A stretch of 32,089 nucleotides of DNA, taken from NCBI GenBank assembly GCA_009786195.1, contig WQTP01000038.1:1-32089 (forward strand), read 5' to 3'. A program made the translations under genes and the position numbers. This DNA comes from Candidatus Saccharimonadota bacterium. GTDB taxonomy: Bacteria; Patescibacteriota; Saccharimonadia; Saccharimonadales; Saccharimonadaceae. This document shows, one piece after another, positions 6,409 through 13,684 of this stretch. How positions within the stretch are numbered: the stretch's first letter is position 1; every line of letters starts with the position of its first letter. The notes beneath the pieces are model-generated. The model worked only from the letters and a program-made list of their open reading frames with translations, searched no databases and was not told the DNA's origin.

Positions 6409-6489
6409 CAAAGTCAAAAGCGTGTGATGTACTTATTCCGGTTAGAGTACTAAACTTAATGCTCGATCTGGGCACAAGGAGGACTAAAG

Positions 6490-9459
6490 GTGAAGATCCA
6501 AAAAAAGGCTCGAACAAACTGGTTCACGTGGGGTATTCGAGTCGGCGTGTTACTCGTCGCGACACTTTTGTTATCGGGCGTGTATGGTGTTGTGCAGTCC
6601 GGGGCGAATCAGATAGTCGAGCGACCCAGCCAATATAAACAGGTGATAATCGAGCTAAACAATGCTGATTACGTCGACATAACCGAACCAGATATCATTG
6701 TCGATCTACAGCAAAACGTTATAGAAAGTGCCAGAGAAAAGTTGTACAGGCAGATAGCAGGGCTTTCCTGTTACATAGAATTAGTTCGGGAATATGATAA
6801 CTTTCCACTAATTGCTTTTAGCGTCGATAGCACCTGTGAATCGTATCTCAAAATGAACCCGTTAGTGTCTCGTGTTAGTGAAAACAGACAATACGAGCCG
6901 CAGGCCTTTGACTATTCATCGCCAATCGATATTATCGACGGATCAATTGAAGAAGGATTTTCAGACGGGACAAATACCTATAGCGGGGCTGGACAAGCTA
7001 TCGTAATCATCGATTCCGGTGTTGACAAACATCACCCAGCGTTACAGGGGAAAGTGATCGCGGAAGCGTGTTTTGGATCTAATAGGATCATTCCGCTTAC
7101 TGATATGATAACAGGTGATGATGTACCAGGATATGTAAGGAGTCTATGTCCCGATGGAGTAGAATTTTCGGATGCTGAGGATTCTGGTCTCGACTGTAGC
7201 TATCTTTTACCCGATGATTGCGGTCATGGAACTATGGTGGCAGCAGCGGCGGTTATGTCGTATCATACTTATACTTCGCCATCATCCGGCGACATGGCTA
7301 AATTGCGCGGCGTGGCGACCGAAACGAAAATAGTTGCTATCCAGATTGATACAGTCGTAGCACTATCCGAGGATGGCGACGAATATATAGGAACTGCACT
7401 GTTTGATTCGGAAATATTAGCCGCTCTTGACTATGTGGCAACGCACGATTTTCCACTGCCAATTGCTGCGGTGAACATGAGTTTTGGCGGCGGGCTTTCG
7501 CATGAAGGTTTCTGCGATGGCTCTGACGCAATCTTTGCGGAAGTTTTTTCAATACTTAGACAAAAAGGTATCGCACCGATTGTAGCAGCTGGAAATGGCG
7601 GCGAATATGAACGCAATGTAATAAGTCCTCCGGGGTGCGTCGAGTCTGCCGTGACTGTGGCTGCTGTTAATAATAATGGAGCTAGATTAACTGATTATAC
7701 CAATAATGGTCGGGCCGTGGATTTGGCTGCTCCTGGTGGTGAAGGTGGCTGGCCGGAGTACGAGGGCGGCATGGTTTTGCCGCTGGCAACGACAACCGAA
7801 TATGTCAAAACTTCCGGAACGTCTTTCGCGGCACCGACGACAGCTGGCGCATTCGCGGTGCTACGTGAGAAAGCTCCAGATGCCTCAGTCGACGAGCTTG
7901 AAGCTATATTGCAGTCAACGGGCGCACCGATTTTTGATGACCGTGATGGTTTTTGGCCGTCGGAAAAACCATTGATCCAAGTCAATAAAGCACTAGCTGC
8001 ACTAGACGACCGAACGGCGGTTCGCGTCAGTAAAATCGAAATAAGCAAGAGCAGTGCCAAATGGGACGTGGCCAACAGAACGCGATCATTTGATTTAAGT
8101 GCTGCAGTATACGGTCTCAACAACCCTTCGCAAGACGTAACGTGGAGCATCACGGGCAATTTATCGAGCGATACCACAATCGATTCCACTGGTCATGTTG
8201 TCATGTCATTAAATGAAACAGGAGATGTGACGGTAATAGCCACGTCGGTTGCTGATTCCACGAAAAAAGCTTTCTTGATAGTTGGAGAGTTGGAAGTGAA
8301 CGAGCTGAAAGAGGGGGACTTTGATCCGGAGGATGAAGAGTTCATCACACAGCACACACTGAGCCCTGGTTCTATATTTTGTACTCCGAACCTGATCGAG
8401 CCCGGCAAGTCATATAAATGTTCAATGGATCCGCAAGTTGATATTGGATACGAAGCAATCAAGCCATATATAAAAGTTGAGTGGACACTTGAAATTCGTT
8501 CTTGGGAAGCATGCACAACAGAGGGCGAGCCCGATACCACAATTAACGCTAGCGGTGTTTTATACATTTCTGCGCAGGAATCTATTGGTAAAAATATATG
8601 CGTGTATGCAACGGTTAAGGGTAGGTATGAGGGAAGCATTATGCACATAGCATCGATCTTACCTATAGAAATCGGCGAAAATACTCACAAGCTAGAGGTG
8701 ACTTGCTATAGATACAGTTACGATAAATACCCCATGATGGCATGTAGCGCAGCTAGTAATATTAACCACACATTTGTTAATAGTCAACCTATAATCTGGT
8801 CAGTGTTAGGCGCTTCGAGCACCAGTACTGTAATTAGTGGCGATGATTGGGGTGGACATTGGGCTTGGTTAACTTTTGGGCCCGACGAAGAGAATATCGA
8901 ATTTACGGTGAGGGCTGCGCTGTCGGAGTATAGCGATGTATACGGAGAATATACATACATAGCGTATGATTGCAATAAATTCCCGGAGACATGTGATACG
9001 GTAGTGAACGTCACGGTCTGGCCATCTTTCGCTTCTGTGGTGCAAGGCGGGACTGAGCAATTTTGGGCCGAAGTCGAACGTGAAAACTTCTTTTTAGATC
9101 CTGGACAAGGTCTAACTTGGTCAATCTCCGGCAACGAAAAACCTGGCACTACGATCAATGACGGTTTGTTGACTGTTGCTGTCGACGAAACAGCGGATGA
9201 GATAATAGTTATGGCAACCTATCTCTCGAAAGTAGGTATGGCGACGGTGACAATCGTAAAAGTTAATACGCCAATCCAGGGTGATATTGACGGTGACGGT
9301 GCAGTAACCATGATTGATGCAATGTTAATAGCTCAGGCGGTGGTAGGTAGTGGTGGTCTTACTCCGGCACAAAGAGCAATCGCTGACATGGATGGTGATG
9401 GCGTCCTAACTATGGCTGACGTTGTGATGATTATGCGAAAAGCAGCGGGTATGTCCTAA
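6490..9459 (+). CDS. Secreted subtilisin-like (S8) protease with Ig-like modules and C-terminal dockerin-like repeats
   Basis: Signal anchor; I9-like propeptide; catalytic VIIDSGVDKHHP (Asp), DCGHGTMVAA (His), SGTSFAAPTTAG (Ser); C-terminal DIDGDGAVTMIDAMLIAQAV and DMDGDGVLTMADVVMIMRKA. SD aaggagg before GTG. Confidence 0.93.
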   Translation: MKIQKKARTNWFTWGIRVGVLLVATLLLSGVYGVVQSGANQIVERPSQYKQVIIELNNADYVDITEPDIIVDLQQNVIESAREKLYRQIAGLSCYIELVREYDNFPLIAFSVDSTCESYLKMNPLVSRVSENRQYEPQAFDYSSPIDIIDGSIEEGFSDGTNTYSGAGQAIVIIDSGVDKHHPALQGKVIAEACFGSNRIIPLTDMITGDDVPGYVRSLCPDGVEFSDAEDSGLDCSYLLPDDCGHGTMVAAAAVMSYHTYTSPSSGDMAKLRGVATETKIVAIQIDTVVALSEDGDEYIGTALFDSEILAALDYVATHDFPLPIAAVNMSFGGGLSHEGFCDGSDAIFAEVFSILRQKGIAPIVAAGNGGEYERNVISPPGCVESAVTVAAVNNNGARLTDYTNNGRAVDLAAPGGEGGWPEYEGGMVLPLATTTEYVKTSGTSFAAPTTAGAFAVLREKAPDASVDELEAILQSTGAPIFDDRDGFWPSEKPLIQVNKALAALDDRTAVRVSKIEISKSSAKWDVANRTRSFDLSAAVYGLNNPSQDVTWSITGNLSSDTTIDSTGHVVMSLNETGDVTVIATSVADSTKKAFLIVGELEVNELKEGDFDPEDEEFITQHTLSPGSIFCTPNLIEPGKSYKCSMDPQVDIGYEAIKPYIKVEWTLEIRSWEACTTEGEPDTTINASGVLYISAQESIGKNICVYATVKGRYEGSIMHIASILPIEIGENTHKLEVTCYRYSYDKYPMMACSAASNINHTFVNSQPIIWSVLGASSTSTVISGDDWGGHWAWLTFGPDEENIEFTVRAALSEYSDVYGEYTYIAYDCNKFPETCDTVVNVTVWPSFASVVQGGTEQFWAEVERENFFLDPGQGLTWSISGNEKPGTTINDGLLTVAVDETADEIIVMATYLSKVGMATVTIVKVNTPIQGDIDGDGAVTMIDAMLIAQAVVGSGGLTPAQRAIADMDGDGVLTMADVVMIMRKAAGMS

Positions 9460-10047: not shown

Positions 10048-10551
10048 ATGGAGACAGAAACTAACACAGAGTCAGTCAAGCGAAAGTTACCGGTGGGTAT
10101 CATTATTGTTGTCTTAGTTGTCGCATTAGTGATAGGTGCAGGTATAGCAGCGTGGGCAACGGGGTATTTATATGTCGGTTTCAAGAATTCTAAACAAGAG
10201 GCCGTGGTGCACACATCAGTGTGCGATCATGATGTCCAAAAAAGATTCTTTGACGAATATACTAATGTTTCTCATGATGAGAATAAACTAAAGAGCATAC
10301 ACAATGATATAACATCCGATGATAACTGGGAAAAAGATCCGAATTGTCTGATGATTATATTTTTATACGCGACACTAAACGAGGTGAAGGATCAACCGCT
10401 AGCCCAGAAAATGCTTGATGAAATAAAGGATCTCAGCGCAAAAGGTATAAATCCCAGTGGAGAATTCTTTAACCCGAATTGGTCGCACATGCGCATTATG
10501 ACGAAAATGGTGCCGGGAGGAATTGAAGGATCGGGATCTGAGGAGGTATAG
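10048..10551 (+). CDS. Hypothetical single-pass membrane protein
   Basis: METETNTESVKRKLPVGIIIVVLVVALVIGAGIAAWATGYLYVG TM segment; SD gaggaggg. The ORF-track start at 9997 overlaps the promoter. Confidence 0.75.
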   Translation: METETNTESVKRKLPVGIIIVVLVVALVIGAGIAAWATGYLYVGFKNSKQEAVVHTSVCDHDVQKRFFDEYTNVSHDENKLKSIHNDITSDDNWEKDPNCLMIIFLYATLNEVKDQPLAQKMLDEIKDLSAKGINPSGEFFNPNWSHMRIMTKMVPGGIEGSGSEEV

Positions 10552-10552
10552 T

Positions 10553-13500
10553 ATGGTGCGCATTACACATATTTGGCGTAATAAATTCGTAATGGTCGTA
10601 TCGTTTGTAGTCCTGGCGACAATGGCCGCTATGTCTAATACTGATATTGTTCATGCAGAGAATTGCTCTAATACTGGTGCTACTTGCTACAACTCCGTGA
10701 CCGCGGACTTGCCGAGTTATTGTGATCGTATAGGTAGTAACAGATGCGCTGGGCCGTGGTTTTCGGATCCCGGTTCTTCTTATTATAGTATAGGTATAAC
10801 TATTGATTGGAATCAAACTGGGGATGTTAATGTTATGATTAGAGGGGCTGGCTATAGTAAGTTTAGTAGCCAGGATAATGTTTACTCTACTGGTTTAAGC
10901 ATGAATAATGTATTTTATAGTAATGGAACAATGCCATATCCTTTAAGCTCTAGTGGCGCTCAGGGATGGGAAACTACAGCATTACATAGTGTGTCTAGCG
11001 ACTATAACTATAGAGGAACTACTCAAAATGGAAATGGTAATTGGACTAATCAAGGTTCTGAAATATCGGCGAAACTTAACTTGGCAAGAGCGGGAGTGAC
11101 AAACGTACTGCCGAGACCAGGAGAGACTAAAACCATTCAAGTCCCGATGTTCTCTTGTTTTACAATTAATAATACAACTCCTCCTTCGGGTTGGAATCAA
11201 CCATCATCCTACGCATACCCATCCTGTGATACTTCAATGGTTCCGATTCAAGTAACCAGGAGGTCCGCTCCTCAATGGAACATTTCTGTCACCACCACCA
11301 TCGACAAAACTACCGCGTTGCCCGGCGAAACAGTTACCTGGAAACACACTATGCGAGAAAGTAATAACTCAGACGTTAGACACGATGAGGGCGACTGGAT
11401 AGGCGAAACCGGAGATACTCTAGTGAGACCGACTGGCAACATATATCAATATACCAACACCACTGGTGTTGCACCAGTGGTGCAGAATAAAATAGAATGT
11501 GTTGTTCCCAACGGTACTTATAGAATTGCATCCGCTGCTGTCCCGGCGATGCGTTTAGATGTTAGTGGAGGATTGAATAACGGTAATGCTATCATCTACG
11601 AAGGTTCTACTCAAACCTGGACGCTCACTTGTGGAACGGATGGTTTTTACACTATCAAAAACGTCAGACCAGAAGGTAGCGGTTCGAATGGTCAAGTACT
11701 CGATGTGGCGTGGGGTCTCACTTTATCTGGTACTAGCGTGGGTGTTTATGATAACAATGGTACTGCTGCTCAGAAATGGCGCATCGTACCAATTGATTCT
11801 ACTAGTGGTAATTACAGGATTTACAATCAAAGTGGATTAGCTCTAGATATTAATGGAGGCACATATACTAATAACACAAGGGTACAAGTATGGTTGCCTA
11901 ATGGCACACACGCTCAGGGATGGAAAGTTTTGAATACTAGCACTAATAGTGAAATTTTCCCAACAACACTTGTGTATAATGAAAGTAAAGGTACTAATAG
12001 CGCTAAGCTGCCGGCCAGCTGGCACATGTTTAATGATAAAGCAGTTAGCTATACAATAACGAGCGCTGATGTTGGCAAAAAAGTCTGCCAACTGGTGCGT
12101 TCCAACTGGAGTTATAGCAATAACTTCCGTGACAAAGACTCTGATCCGAAATGTGTGACAGTTCAAAATCCTTACGCATACGAATTAATCCCAGAAACCA
12201 CCGTAGTTGATGGGGGTGGGGGTACGGGCGGAGATGTTACTTATGGCGACCGAGCTAGATTTAAAGGTAATATTCGCAATACAGGTCCGGATAATAGTCG
12301 CGAAACCGATTGGGAAGCTTTTATTTTTGTGATCCCCAGAGGTGGCGGTACAGCTGAAGCCCAGAGTAGAACTGTGGGTGGCACACTGAGCAACTCTGTT
12401 ATTAACAGCGTTTATCATCTCGTAAATGTTCGAGATTACGAGTTTGTTGGTAGTCACACTAATCCTCATAACTGTGTGGTTCACAGCACCAGGGGTATCT
12501 TTTCACCCGACAGTATTAGTAATAGTGAAATAGTTTGTCAAACTGGCGATTTAACAGATCGGCTAAATACTCTCGATCTTGGTGATCAATTCTGTTTCGC
12601 TATTCGTGTTTGGCCGTCCTGGGCGTCGCCAGATTATCCGACTCCGGCCAACGACTATAGTTACTCCCGCCCAGCCTGCCTGACTATCAGCAAATCTCCC
12701 CAGATCCAGCTACGAGGGGCTGACTCGAGGTCCGGAGCTGCTAGATTTGGTCAGACAGTGCTCACAGATAGTAAATACAAGGGTGGTTTTGAGGGTAACT
12801 TTTCTGCTAACGAGCAACGTGGTTCTTGGAGTCAGTTTGGACTATTAAGTAACGGTGGAATCACTAATTTTGGCGCTAACGGCTACACTTTTGCAACCGC
12901 CGACAGTCGATCAAAAGCCTGCAAATTGCACTTCGCTAACGTAGTTGATGGTAGCGCCAATTGTGACGGTAGCCTGAGCGGCAACTTTGGTCAAACTGAT
13001 CGAATCATCACTATCCCCAAAGTAGCTGAGTGGAGTGCTGCTGACTTACAAGGATTCGCTAACGTAGGTCAAATCAAAGAACTGACCAATATCTCATTTA
13101 GTTTAGAGGGTCTCGAATCCGGCACGTACTATCTCAAGCAAAGTACCACTATTGAAGCGAGTCGACTCAGCAAGAATCAGCGCCTGGTCCTAGTGGCTGC
13201 TGACCCTAATCACACTATCACCATCGCTGGCAACATCGAAGTCAACCCAACCGACAGATACGACGATTTGAGAGAAATCCCTTCACTCACGGTGATCGCT
13301 GACAAAATCTACGTCCAAGGTTTTAGTAGTATCAGCGGTAATCGAATTGAGAAAATCTTTGGCACTTACATCGCTAAAGAACGTTTCAATACCTGTAACC
13401 TCGGCACAGATAGTGCTCTTGCCGGCATAGCAACCTATAACTCAGCTTCAGTCGACCAAGAAGGACTTTGCCAAAACCAACTAACCGTCCAGGGTGCAGT

Positions 13501-13684
13501 TATTAGCCGAGACCGACCCAATTTCTGGCGCACTTATGGTGCTAGTAGAGATGATGCCAGCGCACCATCCGAAATCTTTCAATATACTCCCAACCTCTAT
13601 CTCACGCCCTTTACCCTTGGCATCAACGACGGTGCTAACGACTGGCGATTAACCGACCTAAGACAGTTACCAGCGAGGTTGTAG
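10553..13684 (+). CDS. Large secreted/surface protein with ricin-type beta-trefoil lectin domain
   Basis: Signal peptide NKFVMVVSFVVLATMAAMSNTDIVHAE; ricin repeats with QxW-type motifs (TQTWTL, AAQKWRI, HAQGWKV; LDVSGG, LDVAWG, LDINGG). SD gaggagg; 1 nt after the preceding stop. Confidence 0.9.
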   Translation: MVRITHIWRNKFVMVVSFVVLATMAAMSNTDIVHAENCSNTGATCYNSVTADLPSYCDRIGSNRCAGPWFSDPGSSYYSIGITIDWNQTGDVNVMIRGAGYSKFSSQDNVYSTGLSMNNVFYSNGTMPYPLSSSGAQGWETTALHSVSSDYNYRGTTQNGNGNWTNQGSEISAKLNLARAGVTNVLPRPGETKTIQVPMFSCFTINNTTPPSGWNQPSSYAYPSCDTSMVPIQVTRRSAPQWNISVTTTIDKTTALPGETVTWKHTMRESNNSDVRHDEGDWIGETGDTLVRPTGNIYQYTNTTGVAPVVQNKIECVVPNGTYRIASAAVPAMRLDVSGGLNNGNAIIYEGSTQTWTLTCGTDGFYTIKNVRPEGSGSNGQVLDVAWGLTLSGTSVGVYDNNGTAAQKWRIVPIDSTSGNYRIYNQSGLALDINGGTYTNNTRVQVWLPNGTHAQGWKVLNTSTNSEIFPTTLVYNESKGTNSAKLPASWHMFNDKAVSYTITSADVGKKVCQLVRSNWSYSNNFRDKDSDPKCVTVQNPYAYELIPETTVVDGGGGTGGDVTYGDRARFKGNIRNTGPDNSRETDWEAFIFVIPRGGGTAEAQSRTVGGTLSNSVINSVYHLVNVRDYEFVGSHTNPHNCVVHSTRGIFSPDSISNSEIVCQTGDLTDRLNTLDLGDQFCFAIRVWPSWASPDYPTPANDYSYSRPACLTISKSPQIQLRGADSRSGAARFGQTVLTDSKYKGGFEGNFSANEQRGSWSQFGLLSNGGITNFGANGYTFATADSRSKACKLHFANVVDGSANCDGSLSGNFGQTDRIITIPKVAEWSAADLQGFANVGQIKELTNISFSLEGLESGTYYLKQSTTIEASRLSKNQRLVLVAADPNHTITIAGNIEVNPTDRYDDLREIPSLTVIADKIYVQGFSSISGNRIEKIFGTYIAKERFNTCNLGTDSALAGIATYNSASVDQEGLCQNQLTVQGAVISRDRPNFWRTYGASRDDASAPSEIFQYTPNLYLTPFTLGINDGANDWRLTDLRQLPARL

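Follow-up and report, generated by a model that had tools for sequence, protein, structure and literature searches.

Cellulosome-style docking seems to hold subtilisin proteases on a cell surface in a saccharibacterium

The window, a stretch of 32,089 nucleotides of a tiny and presumably host-dependent bacterium, encodes a subtilisin that ends in a type I dockerin, and a second subtilisin-dockerin gene on contig C17 of the same genome adjoins the gene for a membrane-anchored cohesin protein; from this adjacency, cellulosome-style docking seems to hold proteases on a cell surface. The window protease itself is probably held through its dockerin on a cohesin-bearing partner, as in a lineage that would tether secreted proteins to its own membrane in this way. 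By analogy with known cohesin-dockerin biology it would be exported, activated by cleavage of its propeptide and retained non-covalently through a calcium-folded contact between dockerin and cohesin, rather than diffusing freely. The scheme proposed for the lineage combines an enzyme ending in a dockerin with a protein, encoded just downstream, that has a signal peptide, a cohesin and a membrane helix, so that the cell would apparently keep secreted proteins, proteases among them, tethered to its membrane. The window gene would then be a second dockerin protease, separately inserted, in a genome that already carries the C17 pair.

The features of the protease gene are collected in Table 1. The reading frame runs from a GTG start to a TAA stop, and the predicted protein begins with a hydrophobic export signal followed by a propeptide region. 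All four catalytic residues are present in the S8 domain, namely D175 (IIDSGVD), H246 (DCGHGTM), N369 (AAGNGG) and S445 (GTSFAAP), in agreement with the original prediction of a secreted S8 subtilisin with a propeptide and an intact active site. The several Ig-like modules that had also been proposed are plausible, although a single Big_2 module was detected and its score lies below the Pfam cut-off. No relative of the window protease was found in a scan of the named genome contigs. Near the protease gene, at positions 10523-13684 of the forward strand, lies a gene for a secreted protein of 1053 residues with a ricin-B lectin domain; a partial homologue of this protein adjoins rpsT in the same-genus genome G001.

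Table 1. Features of the window protease gene, in positions of the window.
Feature	Positions	Strand	Residues	Description and basis
Shine-Dalgarno sequence	6477..6482	+		AGGAGG upstream of the GTG start; direct sequence reading
S8-dockerin reading frame (window protease)	6490..9459	+		989-residue subtilisin, putatively secreted, with C-terminal dockerin; reading frame and Pfam
Peptidase_S8 catalytic domain	6985..7923	+	166-478	Pfam, 113.1 bits
Big_2-like Ig module	8086..8253	+	533-588	18.8 bits, below Pfam cut-off of 22.8
Type I dockerin	9280..9438	+	931-983	Pfam, AlphaFold and Foldseek
Calcium-loop repeat 1	9283..9318	+		DIDGDGAVTMID; sequence
Calcium-loop repeat 2	9385..9420	+		DMDGDGVLTMAD; sequence

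The two calcium-loop repeats near the C-terminus have the positions and motifs that had been claimed for them, and both loops are complete. Jointly they match the Pfam Dockerin_1 family (PF00404) with a score of 41.2 bits (E 1.9e-10, cut-off 22.9), which by this profile is far beyond chance, and the closest sequence match in the PDB is the dockerin module of an S8 protease from Clostridium thermocellum (8X39). An AlphaFold model of the module, made with 26 dockerins from related genomes as alignment partners, has a pLDDT of 94.8 and a pTM of 0.80, with helices at residues 14-24, 32-38 and 48-58. When this model was compared with the PDB using Foldseek, the top 33 matches were all dockerins, with TM scores of up to 0.89; the leading match was 2CCL_B (TM 0.88, rmsd 1.1). 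EF-hand proteins rank after the dockerins, at TM ~0.3, which rules out reading the repeats as isolated EF-hands. Profile match and predicted fold together argue that the C-terminal module is a genuine type I dockerin, as had been suggested from the repeats.

A dockerin had been taken to imply a cohesin partner, and a search of the assembly that contains the window (772 kb in 43 contigs, 88% complete) with the Pfam Cohesin profile (PF00963) gave one match, at C17 8031-8378, with 38 bits. The isolated domain scored 38.1 bits against a curated cut-off of 24.1, whereas hmmscan with the full-length protein overlooked it; phmmer with the C17 protein gave no match in the PDB, where the profile of the class was needed. 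No further cohesin was seen in the assembly even with a profile of 46 cohesins from the class at E values up to 1, which leaves the C17 cohesin as the sole candidate partner there for the window dockerin. The cohesin of genome G031, which is 43-48% identical to that of C17, models as a cohesin, and its first 19 PDB matches are cohesins. Dockerin_1 matches the assembly twice, in the window and at C17:7700-7873. The order on C17 is dnaB, two membrane-protein genes, ybaB, the S8-dockerin gene, the cohesin gene and recR, where dnaB, ybaB and recR are names that we presume from our own reading. The first protein of the pair is a subtilisin of 1100 residues with Flg_new, CBM_X2 and Big_3 domains and a C-terminal dockerin. 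The second, of 497 residues, has a signal peptide, the cohesin, three cadherin-like domains, a C-terminal membrane helix and a basic tail, and its reading frame starts 19 bp after that of the dockerin protein ends. This pair is the clear case, in which the bacterium likely displays a protease on its own membrane.

The same arrangement recurs across the class. In this genome and 60 relatives, every genome with a cohesin over the cut-off (7/7) also carries a dockerin over the cut-off. Of 295 genomes of the class, 31 have a cohesin, 62 a dockerin and 26 both domains (Fisher P 1.4e-15 with no correction for relatedness). The two domains lie within 3 kb of each other in 25 of the 26 genomes with both, where about 1.25 would be expected, and in 14 of the 26 they are on the same strand, dockerin first, with a gap of less than 300 bp. 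One of the pairs (G041) depends on a dockerin match (2e-4) that falls just short of the cut-off used in the survey, and one genome counted as free of cohesin (G102) shows an adjacent cohesin with the sensitive profile. The dockerin-bearing cargo in these pairs includes a subtilisin (G000), polysaccharide deacetylases (G010, G044, G238 and G102) and Ig/fn3 proteins. Phylum-wide, a cohesin match was found in 94 of 381 genomes. Genomes of this phylum, presumably Patescibacteria/CPR, measure about 0.5-1.7 Mb, and the class is probably Saccharimonadia. Among named genomes, the C17 cohesin protein has its closest relatives in metagenome-assembled genomes (MAGs) of Bacilli and Clostridia, and in Bacilli and related MAGs outside the phylum (L233, L234, L236 and L241) a gene ending in a dockerin is found directly 5' of a cohesin-membrane gene. 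Horizontal exchange of the C17-type two-gene unit is likely.

Larger assemblies of these domains were also seen. Genome G228 encodes a protein of 999 residues (L193:5670-8669) in which Pfam identifies three cohesins, fn3 repeats and a C-terminal dockerin, so that scaffoldin-like proteins exist in the class. Genome matches in the same genus, L188 (G135) and L199 (G300), are three-cohesin/fn3/dockerin proteins of ~1000 residues that resemble adaptor scaffoldins. The 0.8 Mb genome G050 (L065-L069) has eight dockerin and five cohesin matches, with nearly uniform dockerin motifs (IFDLSILLS); its cargo looks partly glycoside-hydrolase-like by eye, and a miniature cellulosome is possible. In G031 (L062:1514-9463) a repeat protein of 2649 residues ends in a dockerin and is followed by two cohesin-cadherin-membrane genes.

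Whether the window dockerin docks on the C17 cohesin was considered through the recognition residues. In known type I dockerins, specificity resides in positions 9-11 of the loop and 13-20 of the helix. At these positions the window and C17 dockerins are 9% identical, no more than unrelated dockerins are, while pairs of dockerins within other single genomes are 32-95% identical. Pairs from different genomes average 20%, and the window dockerin against all others gives 9%. The C17 dockerin is also 82% alike between its two repeats, compared with 27% for the window dockerin. By this proxy, which is one of sequence, the two dockerins appear to fall in different recognition classes, and the 9% identity suggests a different partner for each protease. 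The expectation of a cohesin in the same genome was correct, but its recognition class appears to differ from that of the window dockerin. As a model of an adjacent pair, the G031 dockerin was read through its stop into the neighbouring cohesin and folded as a single chain, giving a pTM of 0.58 with a long helical linker. The C17 cohesin is a tentative candidate for the partner of the window dockerin; about equally possible are a cohesin in the missing 12% of the genome, or one too divergent to detect, and a dockerin that has no partner now. A cohesin on another cell is an unlikely partner.

The alternative of an orphan dockerin, in which the partner was lost or never present, the module is decaying or just caps the C-terminus with calcium to stabilise it, and the protease is freely secreted, we regard as possible but rather doubtful. 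It is consistent with a recognition class unlike that of the C17 pair, the one dockerin-cohesin pair that the genome has, and with the same-genus orthologue in G001 (L128:4030-6414). This is 63% identical across the protease, but its dockerin has lost the calcium ligands in both loops while keeping the helices TMSDVIILM and TMFDIVILL, and a search of that genome with the class profile gave no cohesin. The same search gave no convincing cohesin in G008 and G014, which encode related subtilisin-dockerins. In genus g2, which belongs to the same family, dockerins occur in many genomes where no cohesin was detected; large proteins of such genomes (L213, L215, L217 and L220) end in a dockerin type typical of gut bacteria (DYIKIKKHIM). 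On the other hand, the complete calcium loops and very confident predicted fold of the window dockerin argue against a long period of relaxed evolution, and with an assembly just 88% complete a partner may lie outside it.

It is improbable that the window dockerin instead plugs the protease into a cohesin of a host or of a neighbouring, perhaps gut, bacterium. The lack of a convincing partner among the cohesins of the same genome and the presence of C17-related cohesin-membrane proteins in gut Bacilli and Clostridia MAGs would fit such a role, although the pattern across the class is one of pairing inside a single genome. If true, cohesin-dockerin recognition would serve attachment and delivery between organisms. 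That protease display is directed at a host, as had been suggested for a possibly epibiotic genome, is a conjecture.

Retention of the window protease on a cohesin-bearing partner, the reading preferred here, is set in a genome that has acquired both dockerin proteases by insertion. In G001 and G002, both of the same genus, ybaB directly adjoins recR in otherwise the same gene order (L106 and L107), and from this empty site the C17 S8-dockerin/cohesin pair has been inserted between the two genes. That C17 is contamination, leaving the genome without a cohesin of its own, is very improbable and was rejected: the closest named relatives of its cohesin protein are in Bacilli and Clostridia MAGs and GC falls to 34-39% over the S8-dockerin gene, but dnaB, ybaB and recR flank the insert in the order of the same-genus genomes, the site is empty there, and the C17 RecR is 87% and 88% identical to those of G001 and G002, whereas no other searched genome exceeds 79%. 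The window protease gene is also an insertion, as loci L133 and L134 show: holA adjoins rpsT in G001, and in G002 just one unrelated short gene separates them. In G005 (L110) a sortase-like gene immediately precedes recR, at the junction where ybaB directly adjoins recR in other genomes, so that surface genes may have been inserted here repeatedly. The recR genes of G002 (L107) and G008 (L100) carry an in-frame insertion near residue 167-171.

Among the known systems closest to the window protease is Clo1313_0689 of Clostridium thermocellum (8X39, 8X3A; Foldseek TM 0.87), which also joins a subtilisin-type protease to type I dockerin modules and for which anchoring at the cell surface through ScaD has been proposed (PMC12484212). 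Clo1313_0689 has two tandem dockerins and belongs to a full cellulosome producer, whereas the window protease has a single dockerin, and its ultrasmall genome shows one cohesin but no scaffoldin. The window dockerin shares its fold and calcium-loop layout with the cellulosomal type I complexes (1OHZ, 2CCL), although its recognition residues differ. Nor does the genome resemble that of a cellulosome producer: no multi-cohesin scaffoldin was detected, the 88% of the genome that is available holds one cohesin, and both of its dockerin proteins are subtilisins, with no cellulase cargo detected. Both by profile and by fold, the cohesins of the class match best the non-cellulosomal cohesin-like modules of GH84C/NagJ and GH33 from Clostridium perfringens (2JH2, 2W1N, 2VO8); there the cohesin is on a secreted glycosidase, while here a separate protein anchored in the membrane carries it. 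CPR Microgenomates (Shapirobacterales, Roizmanbacterium), of another class within the same phylum-level group, have cohesin and dockerin domains and putative cellulosomes for carbohydrate degradation, and the part of that account considered here describes no two-gene unit of protease and membrane cohesin (PMC9123182). The cultivated epibiotic saccharibacterium Southlakia epibionticum has an envelope protein with a dockerin domain, SEML1_0315, that was essential in a transposon screen; it is likened here by its description and is not described as a protease, nor is a cohesin mentioned (PMC10633639). Dockerin proteases are already known from cellulosome producers (PMC12484212). The two-gene unit appears undescribed in Saccharibacteria, as no account of it was found in the literature searched.

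What is known of cohesin-dockerin recognition comes chiefly from clostridia that degrade cellulose. In one class of ultrasmall bacteria, and in gut Bacilli, it appears in the form of a compact display unit of two genes, a secreted dockerin protein with a membrane-anchored cohesin. The cargo includes proteases and polysaccharide deacetylases. Such units bear on how these bacteria may retain and use their exoenzymes, and binding can be predicted directly from the pairs, from the order of their genes and from the recognition residues. If SEML1_0315 has a cohesin partner, this could account for part of an essential function in the envelope (PMC10633639).
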